A stretch of 64,000 nt of DNA from a virus. The position numbers and the translations under genes were made by a program. The number at the start of each line of letters is the position of its first letter. Within the stretch, counting starts at the first letter, position 1. The notes under the pieces are model-generated. The model had not been told where the DNA came from, ran no database searches, and saw nothing but the letters and a program-made list of their open reading frames with translations. The stretch lies in the IMG/VR virus record IMGVR_UViG_3300034073_005389, positions 297,491-361,490 of that record; one strand, 5' to 3'. Shown one piece after another: positions 1 to 49,801 of this stretch.

Positions 1-2
1 CG

Positions 3-590
3 ACTTCAACAAAACTGCCGCCTAAATTTTATTTTAAAGGCTTAAGGCTACATGAATCTATGTGCGGTAAAAATCCGCATGGGAAATCAGTAATGTATCC
101 AACTAAACATTCAGATAAAACTATCGAAAAATTAAAAGAGTCAGGTAAAAAAAGAGTTTGGACTCAGGAACAAAAAATAAAACTTAGTGAAAGTATGAAA
201 AATGCTGTTAAAAAGCATCCGGAATCATACACAAATTCTAATAGAGGAAGGGTTAAACAAATAATATTTGATAATATCAAATTTCATGGTAAATGGGAAG
301 TTGCTTTCTATAAATGGTCAAAAGAAAACAATATTGAGATAAAAAAAAATATTGAAGGATTTAACTATTATTGGAGAGGTAATAGAACATATTTTCCTGA
401 TTTTTATCTTCCAAAATTAGAATTATTTATTGAAATAAAAGGATATGAAACATATCGAGACCAAGCAAAATGGTCTGCATTTCCTAAGAAACTTATAGTA
501 ATTAGAAAAGAACAAATTTTACAAATTAATAAAGGAATATTTCCTGGAATAGAAAGCATTCCTTTAACTAGTCCGACAAACAGGACTTGA
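3..590 (+). CDS. Homing endonuclease-like protein (5' partial)
   Basis: The frame is open to the left edge of the window, so the true start lies upstream; the first internal ATG is at 60. After that ATG comes a basic NUMOD3-like segment (HSDKTIEKLKESGKKR, with a second SESMKN copy). It is followed by a PD-(D/E)xK-like core: FPDFYLP, then FIEIKGY about ten residues later. This order is typical of free-standing phage homing nucleases that cut DNA and spread their own gene. The 3' end overlaps, antiparallel, the 3' exon of the intron-containing tRNA-Met. Strand and context suggest a mobile gene associated with that tRNA. Nuclease class is inferred from motifs only. Confidence 0.7.
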   Translation, partial: TSTKLPPKFYFKGLRLHESMCGKNPHGKSVMYPTKHSDKTIEKLKESGKKRVWTQEQKIKLSESMKNAVKKHPESYTNSNRGRVKQIIFDNIKFHGKWEVAFYKWSKENNIEIKKNIEGFNYYWRGNRTYFPDFYLPKLELFIEIKGYETYRDQAKWSAFPKKLIVIRKEQILQINKGIFPGIESIPLTSPTNRT

Positions 591-883
591 ACCTGTAACC
601 ACGCGATTATGCTTACCACTACGATTTTCATCGCCTTTTTAAAGTTTGTGGTCTGGACTATACCTTCCCTCTCGGGTCTAACGTCTAGTCTCTACACCTT
701 CTCAAATTTATTGAGCTTGGCTCGGGATTAGCATATAAATTTCTTTACTTAGCTTTCCCCGAATTTGTCAGATTCTACCAAGATGTTTCACTTGGCAACC
801 CACGATAGTATATCATGAACATATATTGTTTTTAGATATACAATCTTCGAGTCGCATGCTCTAACCAATTGAGCTATTGTCGG
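572..883 (-). tRNA. tRNA-Met/Ile (CAU) interrupted by a group I intron
   Basis: Joining exon 1 (883-850) to exon 2 (611-572) gives a complete cloverleaf: acceptor CCGACAA/TTGTCGG, D arm GCTC/GAGC, anticodon stem TGCGA/TCGCG with loop CTCATAA, variable loop TGGTT, T stem ACAGG/CCTGT and discriminator A. The anticodon CAT means Met, or Ile if the C is modified to lysidine. Exon 1 ends in U33 and the intron ends in G, as expected for group I splicing. A promoter of the phage class lies just upstream at 928-959. CCA is not encoded. Confidence 0.9.
612..849 (-). other. Group I self-splicing intron in the tRNA anticodon loop
   Basis: This 238 nt insert shows the conserved core elements in order on the minus strand: P (AATTCGGGGAAAGC), Q (AATCCCGAGCCAAGC), R (AGAGACTAGACG) and S (AAGGTATAGTCC). 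It is inserted directly after U33, ends with the expected terminal G and contains no ORF. Self-splicing would restore a perfect anticodon loop. Confidence 0.9.
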
Positions 884-1378: not shown

Positions 1379-1675
1379 TCAATAATTTTCTACTTGCTCA
1401 ACAATTTCTAATTCTTGAAAAAATTCCTGCTCTACAGGGCGACCTTGGTCAATTGGTTCAATTCCACAATCTGTAGGAATTGCAATCAGCACAACTTGAT
1501 TATTAATCACTACTTCTTTGTAGTCAACAGGACAGCCCAATTCTTTAGGTAAAGATGATGAAAAATCCTCGGCAGAATCTTGAACAGTATCCTGCTCCAA
1601 CTCCTCTGATTCTGGTAACTCTTGGAAGTTATAACAACCAGTTAATACCAAACAAAGAATAAAAAAATGTCTCAT
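1379..1675 (-). CDS. Predicted small lipoprotein, 98 aa
   Basis: The N-terminus MRHFFILCLVLTGCYN has a short charged start, a hydrophobic core and the lipobox LTGC. The mature protein is very acidic in its first half (ESEELEQD) and has two further cysteines that could pair. It would be exported and lipid-anchored in the host envelope. Phage lipoproteins of this kind can act in superinfection exclusion or lysis, but nothing here decides which. A second predicted lipoprotein lies at 20871-21215. Confidence 0.8.
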   Translation of the reverse strand: MRHFFILCLVLTGCYNFQELPESEELEQDTVQDSAEDFSSSLPKELGCPVDYKEVVINNQVVLIAIPTDCGIEPIDQGRPVEQEFFQELEIVEQVENY

Positions 1676-1705
1676 GACTAAATACCAATTAATTAGTTAA
1701 CTTAA

Positions 1706-2194
1706 CTAATCTCCTTTATTATTTTTTAAAAATTCAGTAGCAGATTTATTAATACGCTCTTCTCTTTTATCTTCTTGCTCTCTATAATGATCTTTACATA
1801 GCGTCATGTACCAACTACCAAGAACTCTATTCTCTCCAGGAACACCACAAGTTTCACAAATATGAAAACTCATATTCTCTGCCATAGAAATGGCTCCAGA
1901 AATATAATCATTGGTGCAGCTAGTGTAAAACCTAAGACCACCAAATTTTTCTTTAACTTGAACCGCAGTAAATAAATCTAACAAACTCTTATTAGTTTTA
2001 TGATCAAAATCTTTATTTACTGGAGAATCTGGATTACTAACTCTCCACTCAATATGTTCAAGATGAGATTCAATTATTGAGCATAGATTATCTATTATCT
2101 TATACCAACCAGAACCACACTCTATGTGTGTTAGATTTTTAAACACTCTAGGATACTTTTCCAGTAAAGTAGAATACCAAACTTCTTTAGTCAT
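1706..2194 (-). CDS. Conserved phage protein with C-terminal Cys pair, 162 aa
   Basis: Contains VQVKEKFGGLRFYT near residue 80, a signature I know from many uncharacterised phage proteins. CETCG follows about 35 residues later, then CKDH, a possible zinc-binding CxxC/CxxH knuckle. The C-terminus is highly charged. The start ATG overlaps the stop of the 54-aa gene upstream (ATGA), which suggests translational coupling. Function unknown. Confidence 0.85.
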   Translation of the reverse strand: MTKEVWYSTLLEKYPRVFKNLTHIECGSGWYKIIDNLCSIIESHLEHIEWRVSNPDSPVNKDFDHKTNKSLLDLFTAVQVKEKFGGLRFYTSCTNDYISGAISMAENMSFHICETCGVPGENRVLGSWYMTLCKDHYREQEDKREERINKSATEFLKNNKGD

Positions 2195-2355
2195 AAAAGC
2201 TCTTCTTTGTGTTCAGTATGAGTATCATCACAATGCTTCTCATGACATTTATGAGAATATTTTGTATGATACCATGTATGAAGTTTCTTAAACCATATTC
2301 CAACAAAAGGAATAAGAGACATAATTAAAAATAATTCATCAGCACAAAAATGCAT
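2191..2355 (-). CDS. Small His/Cys-rich membrane protein, 54 aa
   Basis: The start at 2355 sits behind a good Shine-Dalgarno (AGAGGAG) and the stop overlaps the next gene by 4 nt. Residues about 7-22 (ELFLIMSLIPFVGIWF) can form one membrane helix. The cytoplasmic-like tail is rich in His and Cys (KCHEKHCDDTHTEH) and may bind metal. Function unknown. Confidence 0.65.
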   Translation of the reverse strand: MHFCADELFLIMSLIPFVGIWFKKLHTWYHTKYSHKCHEKHCDDTHTEHKEELL

Positions 2356-2749
2356 ACTGGACTCCTCTTAAGAAATTTGCAACCGAGAATATATCACCTA
2401 CATATATTTTAGATATTAAAAATATATTTATAACTTTGTTAAAGCGGCAAAACTAGTAAGTCTACCACTGTAGTACAGCAACAAAGTTATAAATAATATT
2501 TTAAAGACTACCTTCTAAGTGATAAATCTCTCGACAAAAAATGGGATATATTATAGGGAAGAGTAGTTCTTTTATGATCTAAGAAGATCTGATCAAGTAG
2601 AAGAAAATAATATACAGTAAAATTAATACTATCTCCCAGAGTTTTTGGGAGAAGTTGACTTTCTCTTTAGAACTTCCATCAGGTGGATGGCAGGTAAAAG
2701 TCAATTAATATCCTAATTATTAGGGTTATACTAATATAAGATATTATTA
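2356..2749. other. Intergenic region with inverted repeats, no gene seen
   Basis: No credible ORF here. It contains a 14-bp perfect inverted repeat (2427-2440 with 2480-2493) around a 39-nt loop, and extended by further pairing outside. It also contains a TCTCCCA/TGGGAGA hairpin at 2632-2652 and an outer TTGACTT/AAGTCAA pairing around 2655-2705. The latter two may form the 3' end of the gene at 2750. Confidence 0.6.
2427..2493. repeat. Perfect 14-bp inverted repeat with structured loop
   Basis: Arms TTTATAACTTTGTT and AACAAAGTTATAAA enclose AAAGCGGC...CTACCACTGTAG. The loop contains a second small CTAC/GTAG stem. AAATAT/ATATTT pairs extend the outer helix. Could be a small RNA, a protein-binding site or an old mobile-element end. 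Confidence 0.6.
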
Positions 2750-3265
2750 CTATTTATTTTTAATTCTAGAAGTCTGGACAAACAGATCATTCATGCTCAA
2801 ATAGTAATCATTAACATCCAGCTCATAGTAACCACAATTTTTCAGCATTATGGCTGAGTTTTTCACATCTCCTGCATGAAAAAATGTTAATGCTCCTTTA
2901 CATCTATTTTTAATAACTTTCCAATAATTCCTAGCGCCTTCATGGAAGGAAAGGAAAGATCTAAATCTAGAACTAGCTACTTTGTAGTATGCCCTAGTGG
3001 CATGATTAACATGGGCTCCAATATTTCCTAAATTATAATTATATACTAATTTACCTTTACCATTTTCAAGTGCAATTTGTGACCAAGCCATATTTACAGT
3101 ATTTTTGGACGCTGGCTTATCAAAAACTTCTAAATAAGTTTCTTTTAAAACTTCTTTTAATTTTTCTTCTTGAATAGGTGTTTGGTGTTTTTTTATCTCA
3201 AAATTAGCAGAACATTCTTCAACAGGACCAAATGTTCCAAGTATAATACACAATGATTTTATCAT
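2750..3265 (-). CDS. Exported glucosaminidase/lysozyme-like protein, 171 aa
   Basis: Starts with a signal-peptide-like segment (MIKSLCIILGTFG, cleavage possible near SA-N at 20-21). The central part, WSQIALENGKGK followed by NYNLGNIG, resembles peptidoglycan glucosaminidases and FlgJ-type muramidases, where an AxxxxExG..YN.GNI pattern carries the catalytic Glu. It would attack host peptidoglycan from the periplasm. The short length and divergent motif mean this is a family resemblance, not a firm assignment. Confidence 0.6.
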   Translation of the reverse strand: MIKSLCIILGTFGPVEECSANFEIKKHQTPIQEEKLKEVLKETYLEVFDKPASKNTVNMAWSQIALENGKGKLVYNYNLGNIGAHVNHATRAYYKVASSRFRSFLSFHEGARNYWKVIKNRCKGALTFFHAGDVKNSAIMLKNCGYYELDVNDYYLSMNDLFVQTSRIKNK

Positions 3266-41097: not shown

Positions 41098-41109
41098 TTT
41101 ATTTATTGG

Positions 41110-48357: not shown

Positions 48358-48528
48358 TCACGGCAAGAAATACCTTCCATCCACCGCATCAACCTTATCC
48401 AGCATATCCAGAATCTTGTTCTTCTCCTCGCCTTCCGACAATCCTCGAACCACCAACATCAGATTGTCCCAGGCATCCTGATCAATGCCGTATTCATCAT
48501 CCAAAAGAGACTCAATGAAGTTGAACAT
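48358..48528 (-). CDS. Small acidic helical protein, 56 aa
   Basis: The ATG at 48528 (MFNFIESLLDDEYGIDQD) has GGAGGTAAG upstream. Acidic helices, ends VDGRYFLP. Not recognised. The pseudoknot promoter follows its stop. Confidence 0.8.
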   Translation of the reverse strand: MFNFIESLLDDEYGIDQDAWDNLMLVVRGLSEGEEKNKILDMLDKVDAVDGRYFLP

Positions 48529-48565
48529 TGTGCTTACCTCCAATCCAACCCAACCTTGTCCCCTA

Positions 48566-48593
48566 CCTACAATCTCCCAAGTTTACCGATGGG
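48566..48593 (-). promoter_or_regulatory. Class A promoter for the 48358 gene
   Basis: Box CCCATCGGTAAAC, 9-nt spacer, -10 TGTAGG then TAGGGG. Confidence 0.75.
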
Positions 48594-48605
48594 AACCCCC
48601 ACTTA

Positions 48606-48636
48606 TTGCCAACAAAGCCGAAACCTTGTTGGCAAT
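48606..48636 (-). terminator. Hairpin after the 48641 gene
   Basis: ATTGCCAACAAGG pairs with CTTTGTTGGCAAT on the minus strand. Sits between the stop at 48641 and the promoter box at 48581-48593, but the T tract is weak. Confidence 0.65.
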
Positions 48637-48640
48637 CCTG

Positions 48641-48796
48641 TCAATCCTCTACCCGCTCCAAATAACTCTCCTCCTCATTAGAGGTTTTTTTGTAACCCGT
48701 AGCCACCACAATCTCTCCCGAACTGTCCTCCGAGAATACCGCATCAGGACAAACTTGCAACACCAGTTGCACCATTTCCGCAAAAGTGATCTTCAT
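48641..48796 (-). CDS. Small acidic protein, 51 aa
   Basis: MKITFAEMVQLVLQVCPDAV, then SEDSSGEIVVATGYKKTSNE. The TGATG overlap with the upstream gene couples translation. Function unknown. Confidence 0.75.
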   Translation of the reverse strand: MKITFAEMVQLVLQVCPDAVFSEDSSGEIVVATGYKKTSNEEESYLERVED

Positions 48797-48951
48797 CACC
48801 ACCCAACCTTGTCAGGAGATACCACCAAACAAAAATACGGATTCCCAGGTTTCATCAATCGCAACTTGTTTCCCAGCTTTCCCATAAAACAATACACGCC
48901 AGCATAACCAGAAACACTTGCATACACCAAATCACCAATCCGCAAGTTCAT
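48796..48951 (-). CDS. Hypothetical SH3-like protein, 51 aa
   Basis: The ATG at 48951 (MNLRIGDLVYASVSGYAG) with GGAGGC upstream. Short beta barrel pattern with GDLVYA, GYAGVYCFMG and LRLMKPG. Not recognised. Confidence 0.75.
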   Translation of the reverse strand: MNLRIGDLVYASVSGYAGVYCFMGKLGNKLRLMKPGNPYFCLVVSPDKVGW

Positions 48952-48990
48952 TATGCCTCCTGTTTTATCTCCAACCAACCGCTCCCCCCA

Positions 48991-49018
48991 CCTCTAATCA
49001 CCCAAGTTGACCGATGGG
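48991..49018 (-). promoter_or_regulatory. Class A promoter for the 48796/48641 genes
   Basis: Box CCCATCGGTCAAC, 9-nt spacer, -10 TAGAGG then TGGGGG. Confidence 0.8.
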
Positions 49019-49067
49019 AGCCGTTTGCACTTACCAGGAAGCCCATTACAGGCTTCCCAGTAAATAA

Positions 49068-49382
49068 TCACTTTTGAAGCGCCTTCTTTTCCATATTCTC
49101 CGTGGCAACTTCCACCAGTTGCCGAACATACTTATACATCATCACTCTGGCTTTATTCAAATGATTTCCCGTCAACTTCTTACCACTCATTAGCCATTTG
49201 GCATAATAAGTGCCAAGCCTGGCATCAGGTCCATTGAAGCCTTTGCCATTCGTGTGCAATGTGGTATTGCTGGTTTGCTCATCCATGGTTTGACGAGCAA
49301 AAATAGCCAATACCGCCCTCTCCACCGCATAATCATTGCAAAGCAACAAATAACGAATGTAATCCGGACTATTCTTTTCCAT
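49068..49382 (-). CDS. Conserved phage protein, 104 aa
   Basis: The ATG at 49382 (MEKNSPDYIRYLLLCND) with TGGAGG upstream. TNTTLHTNGKGFNGPDARLGTYY-like core, then WLMSGKKLTGNHLNKARVMM, a signature I have seen in unknown phage proteins. Helical, basic C-terminus. A GGGAAGCC/GGCTTCCC-type hairpin at about 49038-49061 terminates it. Confidence 0.8.
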   Translation of the reverse strand: MEKNSPDYIRYLLLCNDYAVERAVLAIFARQTMDEQTSNTTLHTNGKGFNGPDARLGTYYAKWLMSGKKLTGNHLNKARVMMYKYVRQLVEVATENMEKKALQK

Positions 49383-49416
49383 CTTTTCCTCCAAAAAAAG
49401 ATTTTCAAGAACTTGG

Positions 49417-49459
49417 ACGGAGGGAAAGGAATCGAACCTTTCCTACAACCATTCTCCGT
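49417..49459 (-). ncRNA. tRNA minihelix-like element (acceptor plus T arm only)
   Basis: ACGGAG/CTCCGT helix joined through about ten bases to GGAAAGG-TTCGATT-CCTTTCC. The T loop is canonical, but D and anticodon arms are missing. 43 nt. Lies between two genes on the same strand and has no own promoter; a processed tail or an RNA decoy is possible. Confidence 0.5.
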
Positions 49460-49468
49460 ATTCTCTAA

Positions 49469-49801
49469 CTACTTGCGCGAAATACCACCATTCTGCCCAC
49501 GACTCGCCACAAACTTATTGCTCCCAGCAAGATAATCAGCAATCCGCTTGCTCAATCGACCATAATCCTCATACCGATTGCTAATCTTAGCAAACACCTG
49601 CCCAATCAGCAATGGCTTCACCACCTTTGCGTTATTGTTCTCATCAAAAATACTATTCAAAGCATTCTCAATCAGAATATCCTCCGAAAGATTGACATTC
49701 TCCCATTCCACCAAATCCCCCATAAACTTATTCAGCGTAGCCTCATGATCAATCGCACCCGCGTCATTACGAATAACATAGGAAACAAAATCAATCTTCA
49801 T
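49469..49801 (-). CDS. RGxxGG-family small protein, 110 aa
   Basis: MKIDFVSYVIRNDAGAIDHE, then helices, ending FVASRGQNGGISRK. Clearly homologous to 50578-50925 (same start pattern and SRGQNGG) and more distantly to 3901 and 4316. Possible nucleic-acid-binding regulator. Confidence 0.85.
   Translation of the reverse strand: MKIDFVSYVIRNDAGAIDHEATLNKFMGDLVEWENVNLSEDILIENALNSIFDENNNAKVVKPLLIGQVFAKISNRYEDYGRLSKRIADYLAGSNKFVASRGQNGGISRK

Follow-up and report, generated by a model that had tools for sequence, protein, structure and literature searches.

A group I intron in the anticodon loop of a phage tRNA(CAU) gene adjoining a PD-(D/E)XK nuclease gene and close to tilS

The window analyzed here is the last 64 kb of the 361,490-base virus record IMGVR_UViG_3300034073_005389. 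At its left end, a tRNA(CAU) gene split by a group I intron converges with a gene for a free-standing PD-(D/E)XK nuclease, the 3′ end of which overlaps the 3′ exon of the tRNA by 19 bases (Table 1). The nuclease open reading frame (287 amino acids) starts at position 297217 of the same record (G000), 274 bases before the window, and is located between the split tRNA and tilS. The phage tilS, encoded on the same strand as the split tRNA and one gene from it, lies past the nuclease gene and outside the window.

Table 1. Positions of the split tRNA gene, its parts and the overlapping nuclease gene within the window
Feature	Position	Strand	Basis
Split tRNA(CAU) gene, whole	883-572	minus	
5′ exon, tRNA positions 1-33, from the acceptor strand (CCGACAA) through U33	850..883	minus	Exon joining and ARAGORN cloverleaf
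Group I intron, 238 nt, ends in terminal G	612..849	minus	RF00028 and covariation in 21 relatives
3′ exon, C34 to A73 (CATAA...TCGGA)	572..611	minus	Exon joining and ARAGORN cloverleaf
Conserved group I core	630..824	minus	RF00028 match
Free-standing PD-(D/E)XK nuclease gene, C-terminal part	1..590	plus	phrog_15137 and invariant residues

ARAGORN folded the joined exons into a normal cloverleaf with anticodon CAU, which places the splice site between U33 and C34 of the anticodon loop. All seven acceptor pairs and all five anticodon-stem pairs form, the T-stem pairs are intact, and the discriminator is A73 (position 572), with CCA not encoded. On its own strand, the intron contains no open reading frame. 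Run on the window with default settings, ARAGORN missed the tRNA(CAU) gene; with introns allowed, it misplaced the intron and called the split gene tRNA-Leu(caa). An earlier note, made from the sequence alone, had described a phage tRNA at 572-883 with anticodon CAU and an intron directly after U33. The position and the phage origin hold (minus strand, exons 883-850 and 611-572), the insertion site was borne out by exon joining and the cloverleaf, and the intron length given there was exact (849-612). The note named no strand, and it reported neither tilS, which is outside the window, nor the nuclease gene, which the window edge truncates. A further ARAGORN call, a tRNA-Arg with a 1.1-kb intron (48504-49721), was without Rfam support and was taken as false.

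In a local scan, the Rfam group I model RF00028 matched positions 824 to 630 (52.1 bits; gathering score, 50; E value, 1.6e−12), so the covariance-model search that the earlier note had proposed gave a result above cutoff; several relatives also exceeded the cutoff independently. That note had named P, Q, R and S as elements of the core; all four were found and agree with those of the relatives. Across 21 aligned phage introns, the U33·G pair of P1 at the 5′ splice site was invariant, P7 was present in every sequence, at least five of the six P3 pairs formed in each, and all ended in a terminal G. Compensatory changes were identified in P4, P6, P9 and P9b, and position 31 of P1, where the tRNA exon pairs with the intron guide, switched from A-U to G-C (16 to 5). 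Of the cells, 92.4% were paired versus at most 42% in slid-partner controls; conservation of a P10 pairing was not apparent among the relatives, and P10 was left out of the evidence. The pre-tRNA fold had a z score of −5.7 against dinucleotide shuffles and was more stable than 100 of 100. That the feature is a group I intron within a tRNA, as first proposed, is borne out by the RF00028 score and the covariation and appears virtually certain. The covariation, which extends to the tRNA exon and the intron guide, supports a working ribozyme. We take the intron to be IC3-like, a subgroup assigned solely because its P, Q, R and S elements resemble those of the Azoarcus intron.

IMG/VR was scanned with a CAU-intron pattern that combined core element S, the 3′ splice site and the T-arm. 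The pattern matched 46 stretches, approximately 40 of which held an intact tRNA split between U33 and C34; 23 distinct introns were represented, including that of the window, and they measured 185 to 261 nt with one exception of 696 nt. Five loci (L015, L027, L034, L038 and L050) were chance matches, and in L042 and L056 the 5′ exon was unconfirmed. A Leu(UAA) pattern identified 107 viral loci with 92 distinct introns, in which a related intron lies between U34 and A35. The earlier statement that such introns are rare in phages therefore fails against ∼40 CAU-intron and more than 100 Leu(UAA)-intron phage loci from pattern scans, and the apparent rarity reflects missing annotation. Unannotated tRNA-Leu(UAA) introns were found, one each, in the cultured Agrobacterium phage Atu_ph07 and in the 735-kb phage LR756501; that of Atu_ph07 (tRNA at L071 2416-2777) is a 278-nt group I-like intron not listed by the general Rfam group I model at an E value of 0.001. 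On one contig (L054 5330-7261), a 2-kb stretch holds three tRNAs, Leu(UAA), CAU and Arg(UCU), and a separate group I intron interrupts the anticodon loop of each at a position of its own, that of Arg(UCU) being between U36 and A37. Three kinds of phage tRNA thus have group I introns in the anticodon loop, at U33, U34 and U36. BLAST matches in HTVC120P, AD45-P1 and pYD6-A were rejected, as no tRNA is annotated there; the HTVC120P match falls between two capsid-protein open reading frames. Elsewhere in the virus record, outside the window, a weak group I match below cutoff (25.6 bits; G000:103937-104069, minus strand; L011) lies beside a LAGLIDADG-like reading frame, apparently, as judged by eye, within a capsid-like protein gene.

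Introns between U33 and C34 were also identified in bacterial genomes, in fMet-type and Ile2-type tRNAs from approximately 90 contigs, with a low-scoring tail (about 20 of 118 matches) put aside as chance. In a ribozyme tree with moderate branch support, phage and bacterial introns interleaved, as did CAU and Leu introns. Given the mixing of phage and bacterial introns, phages could plausibly carry tRNA introns from one bacterium to another. The window intron clustered with those of L021, L029, L046 and L033 (moderate branch support), and the nearest sizeable bacterial group comprised Rhodocyclales Ile2-tRNA introns; the Rhodocyclales loci L079, L112 and L126 share the U33/C34 site, and no bacterial ribozymes in the tree are closer to the window intron. 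Azoarcus carries a group I intron in tRNA-Ile2(CAU), placed after U36. The Ile2(CAU) introns of Acidovorax and Burkholderia likewise have an Azoarcus-like core and occupy the same kind of tRNA (PMC8450103), but bacterial Ile2 introns are chromosomal, whereas that of the window is in a phage. The cyanobacterial and plastid tRNA-Leu(UAA) introns are anticodon-loop group I introns too, and the phage Leu(UAA) introns have a related core; they differ in lying between U34 and A35 of a Leu tRNA rather than between U33 and C34 of a CAU tRNA.

The identity of the tRNA was considered together with TilS. The phage protein matched the TIGR02432 equivalog domain (120.8 bits; cutoff, 93.6), contains the SGGxDS motif as SGGADS, and is 43% identical to the lysidine synthetase of the MIJ3/PA5oct phages (PMC6892783); no tRNA intron was found in the 16.6-kb stretch around tilS of MIJ3. 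TilS was encoded on 9 of 30 intron contigs, some of which share one intron, versus 34 of 50,697 annotated phage records, some of which look like host contamination, in a comparison unmatched for genome size. In eight of the nine, tilS lay no more than ∼7 kb from the intron-bearing tRNA, and in L021 the two were directly adjacent. TilS was present with each of the five introns that cluster together in the tree (window, L021, L029, L046 and L033); the 21 contigs without it were mostly fragments. The anticodon stem-loop of the split tRNA (GCGACTCATAATCGC) is identical to that of E. coli Ile2, and initiator features were not seen (C1-G72 is paired, and positions 29 to 31 are CGA, not GGG). Pair 4-69 is A-U, not C-G, which was counted against Ile2, and as AUA makes up only 19% of Ile codons in the window open reading frames, the need for an Ile2 tRNA is not obvious. 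Given the proximity of TilS and its enrichment among intron contigs, the tRNA is likely to be Ile2, reading AUA, rather than Met, and the pair provides a potential substrate for phage TilS. A tRNA-Ile(tat) called by ARAGORN at 41107 was not found by Rfam at cutoff and was not used as evidence. Near tilS, farther along and outside the window, the locus L010 also encodes a lysyl-tRNA synthetase (1610-3160; TIGR00499, above cutoff) and a SpoU-family RNA methylase (994-1608), which together with tilS form a translation module.

The nuclease matched the phrog_15137 endonuclease family (E value, 1.3e−20) as well as phage endonuclease families, and contains two CxxC motifs. Its E..PD..ExK catalytic residues were invariant in nine homologues. 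TBLASTN on fetched loci recovered homologues; a peptide-pattern search of IMG/VR and a sequence search of the PDB with the nuclease gave no match. Foldseek, using a structural model with a pLDDT of 80, returned the homing endonuclease I-Bth0305I as the best hit, with a weak E value (0.016) and a probability of 0.99. Close nuclease homologues were located within ∼100 bases of an intron-bearing tRNA(CAU) in L022/L044, L025 and L046 and of an intronless one in PhaxI, cp19, IME341, 50AhydR13PP, Kuja and LR756508. Overall, nuclease and CAU intron were adjacent or overlapping at five loci representing four distinct introns. In annotated phages, a set not selected for tRNAs, tRNA(CAU) adjoined the nuclease in 6 of approximately 9 distinct loci, not all of them evolutionarily independent; relatives in L312, L314, L317 and L319 had no neighboring CAU tRNA. 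Two further homologues lie in L027 (5773-6723, plus) and L034 (2-928, plus), although these loci had been fetched as chance matches of the CAU pattern.

That relatives of the nuclease lie beside tRNA(CAU) genes, both split and intronless, suggests collaborative homing, which is known for the cyanophage psbA intron with F-CphI and in T3/T7-like phages (reviewed in PMC10448857). In those precedents an ORF-less intron likewise lies beside a free-standing nuclease, but the targets are protein genes and the nucleases belong to other families. The tRNA-fMet intron of Synechocystis PCC 6803 with I-Ssp6803I also combines a CAU anticodon-loop intron with a PD-(D/E)XK homing nuclease (PMC1995217), and the bacterial fMet-type loci from our scan share the U33/C34 site with the window intron. 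I-Ssp6803I, however, has 150 amino acids and is encoded inside the 655-nt intron of the initiator tRNA, while the phage nuclease is free-standing and nearly twice as long; no sequence match between the two was found.

From the intron, insertion site, conserved fold and linkages computed above, we infer splicing, lysidine formation, a nuclease target and homing as follows. The anticodon-stem exon G30-A31-C32-U33 would pair with the intron guide to form P1, with U33·G as a wobble. Attack by guanosine after U33 would be the first splicing step, and the freed U33 would then attack after the terminal G to yield the ligated tRNA. This tRNA would be a substrate of the phage-encoded TilS, which would convert C34 to lysidine, and the lysidine-AU anticodon would read AUA codons. 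The PD-(D/E)XK endonuclease may cut intronless tRNA(CAU) alleles of co-infecting phages, with repair copying the intron and nuclease gene together, a DNA-level mobilization by collaborative homing. Taken as a whole, this reading, an autocatalytic IC3-like intron in a phage tRNA-Ile2 that is substrate of TilS and is spread by nuclease-driven homing, is considered probable. A more far-reaching version, which we regard as doubtful, is that phages keep intron-bearing tRNA-Ile2, TilS and a free-standing tRNA(CAU)-specific nuclease as one mobile module; here, the intron would shield the phage's own anticodon-loop DNA from the nuclease, the tRNA(CAU) genes of competing phages would be cut, and splicing would gate lysidine formation and AUA decoding.

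Several other explanations were weighed. A degenerate intron that has lost splicing and left a dead tRNA gene might account for an Rfam score barely over the cutoff, but the acceptor, anticodon and T-stem pairs are all intact, P1, P3, P4, P7 and P9 are intact as well, and the relatives covary, which makes this very improbable. A chance resemblance or an assembly artefact was considered because the feature comes from a single metagenomic contig; with the same site in ∼40 phage loci and ∼90 bacterial contigs, and no match of a reversed control pattern in eight records, the probability of either is close to nil. It is also unlikely that the same self-splicing intron resides in an elongator tRNA-Met, with TilS acting on another tRNA or on host Ile2. 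Whole-tRNA likeness to E. coli Ile2 and to E. coli Met is equal (0.72 each), some relatives are closer to Met, and TilS was not seen in most intron contigs; set against these are the linkage and enrichment of TilS, the Ile2-like anticodon stem, the Ile2-type stems of bacterial non-initiator relatives, and the lack of a second CAU tRNA among the ARAGORN calls within the window.

For the nuclease, a lesser but distinct possibility is that it and the intron are independent passengers, with tRNA genes simply attracting free-standing homing nucleases and the intron fixed in place or spreading by reverse splicing. Members of the nuclease family do occur beside intronless tRNA(CAU) genes and, in L312, near other tRNA types, and related introns are found at U33, U34 and U36 of different tRNAs, a distribution that fits reverse splicing or retargeting. 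Against independent passengers stand the adjoining of nuclease and CAU intron at five loci and the CAU-specific linkage in the annotated phages. An allele of this phage that lacks the intron was not found. On balance, the genomic neighborhoods somewhat favor a nuclease that moves the ORF-less intron by collaborative homing.

A 2014 review placed all phage introns then known in protein genes (PMC3984707). The Lak megaphages, likewise very large, also have introns in tRNA genes, including tRNA-Tyr and tRNA-Thr; these were called enigmatic, and the main text assigns them to no class (PMC6784885). Neither the Atu_ph07 paper nor the huge-phage paper mentions introns in its main text, and a search of the open-access literature yielded no description of phage tRNA introns classified as group I. 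The occurrence of group I introns in phage tRNAs at many loci is apparently unreported, and cultured Atu_ph07 makes phage tRNA splicing testable now. Within the window, 5 kb from the intron-bearing tRNA, an RNA ligase (PF09414; 5935-7014, minus strand) possibly involved in tRNA repair was identified. The window also contains three intronless tRNA-Leu(UAA) genes (31397, 38066 and 45253, minus strand) and one Leu(CAA), an unusual multiplicity.
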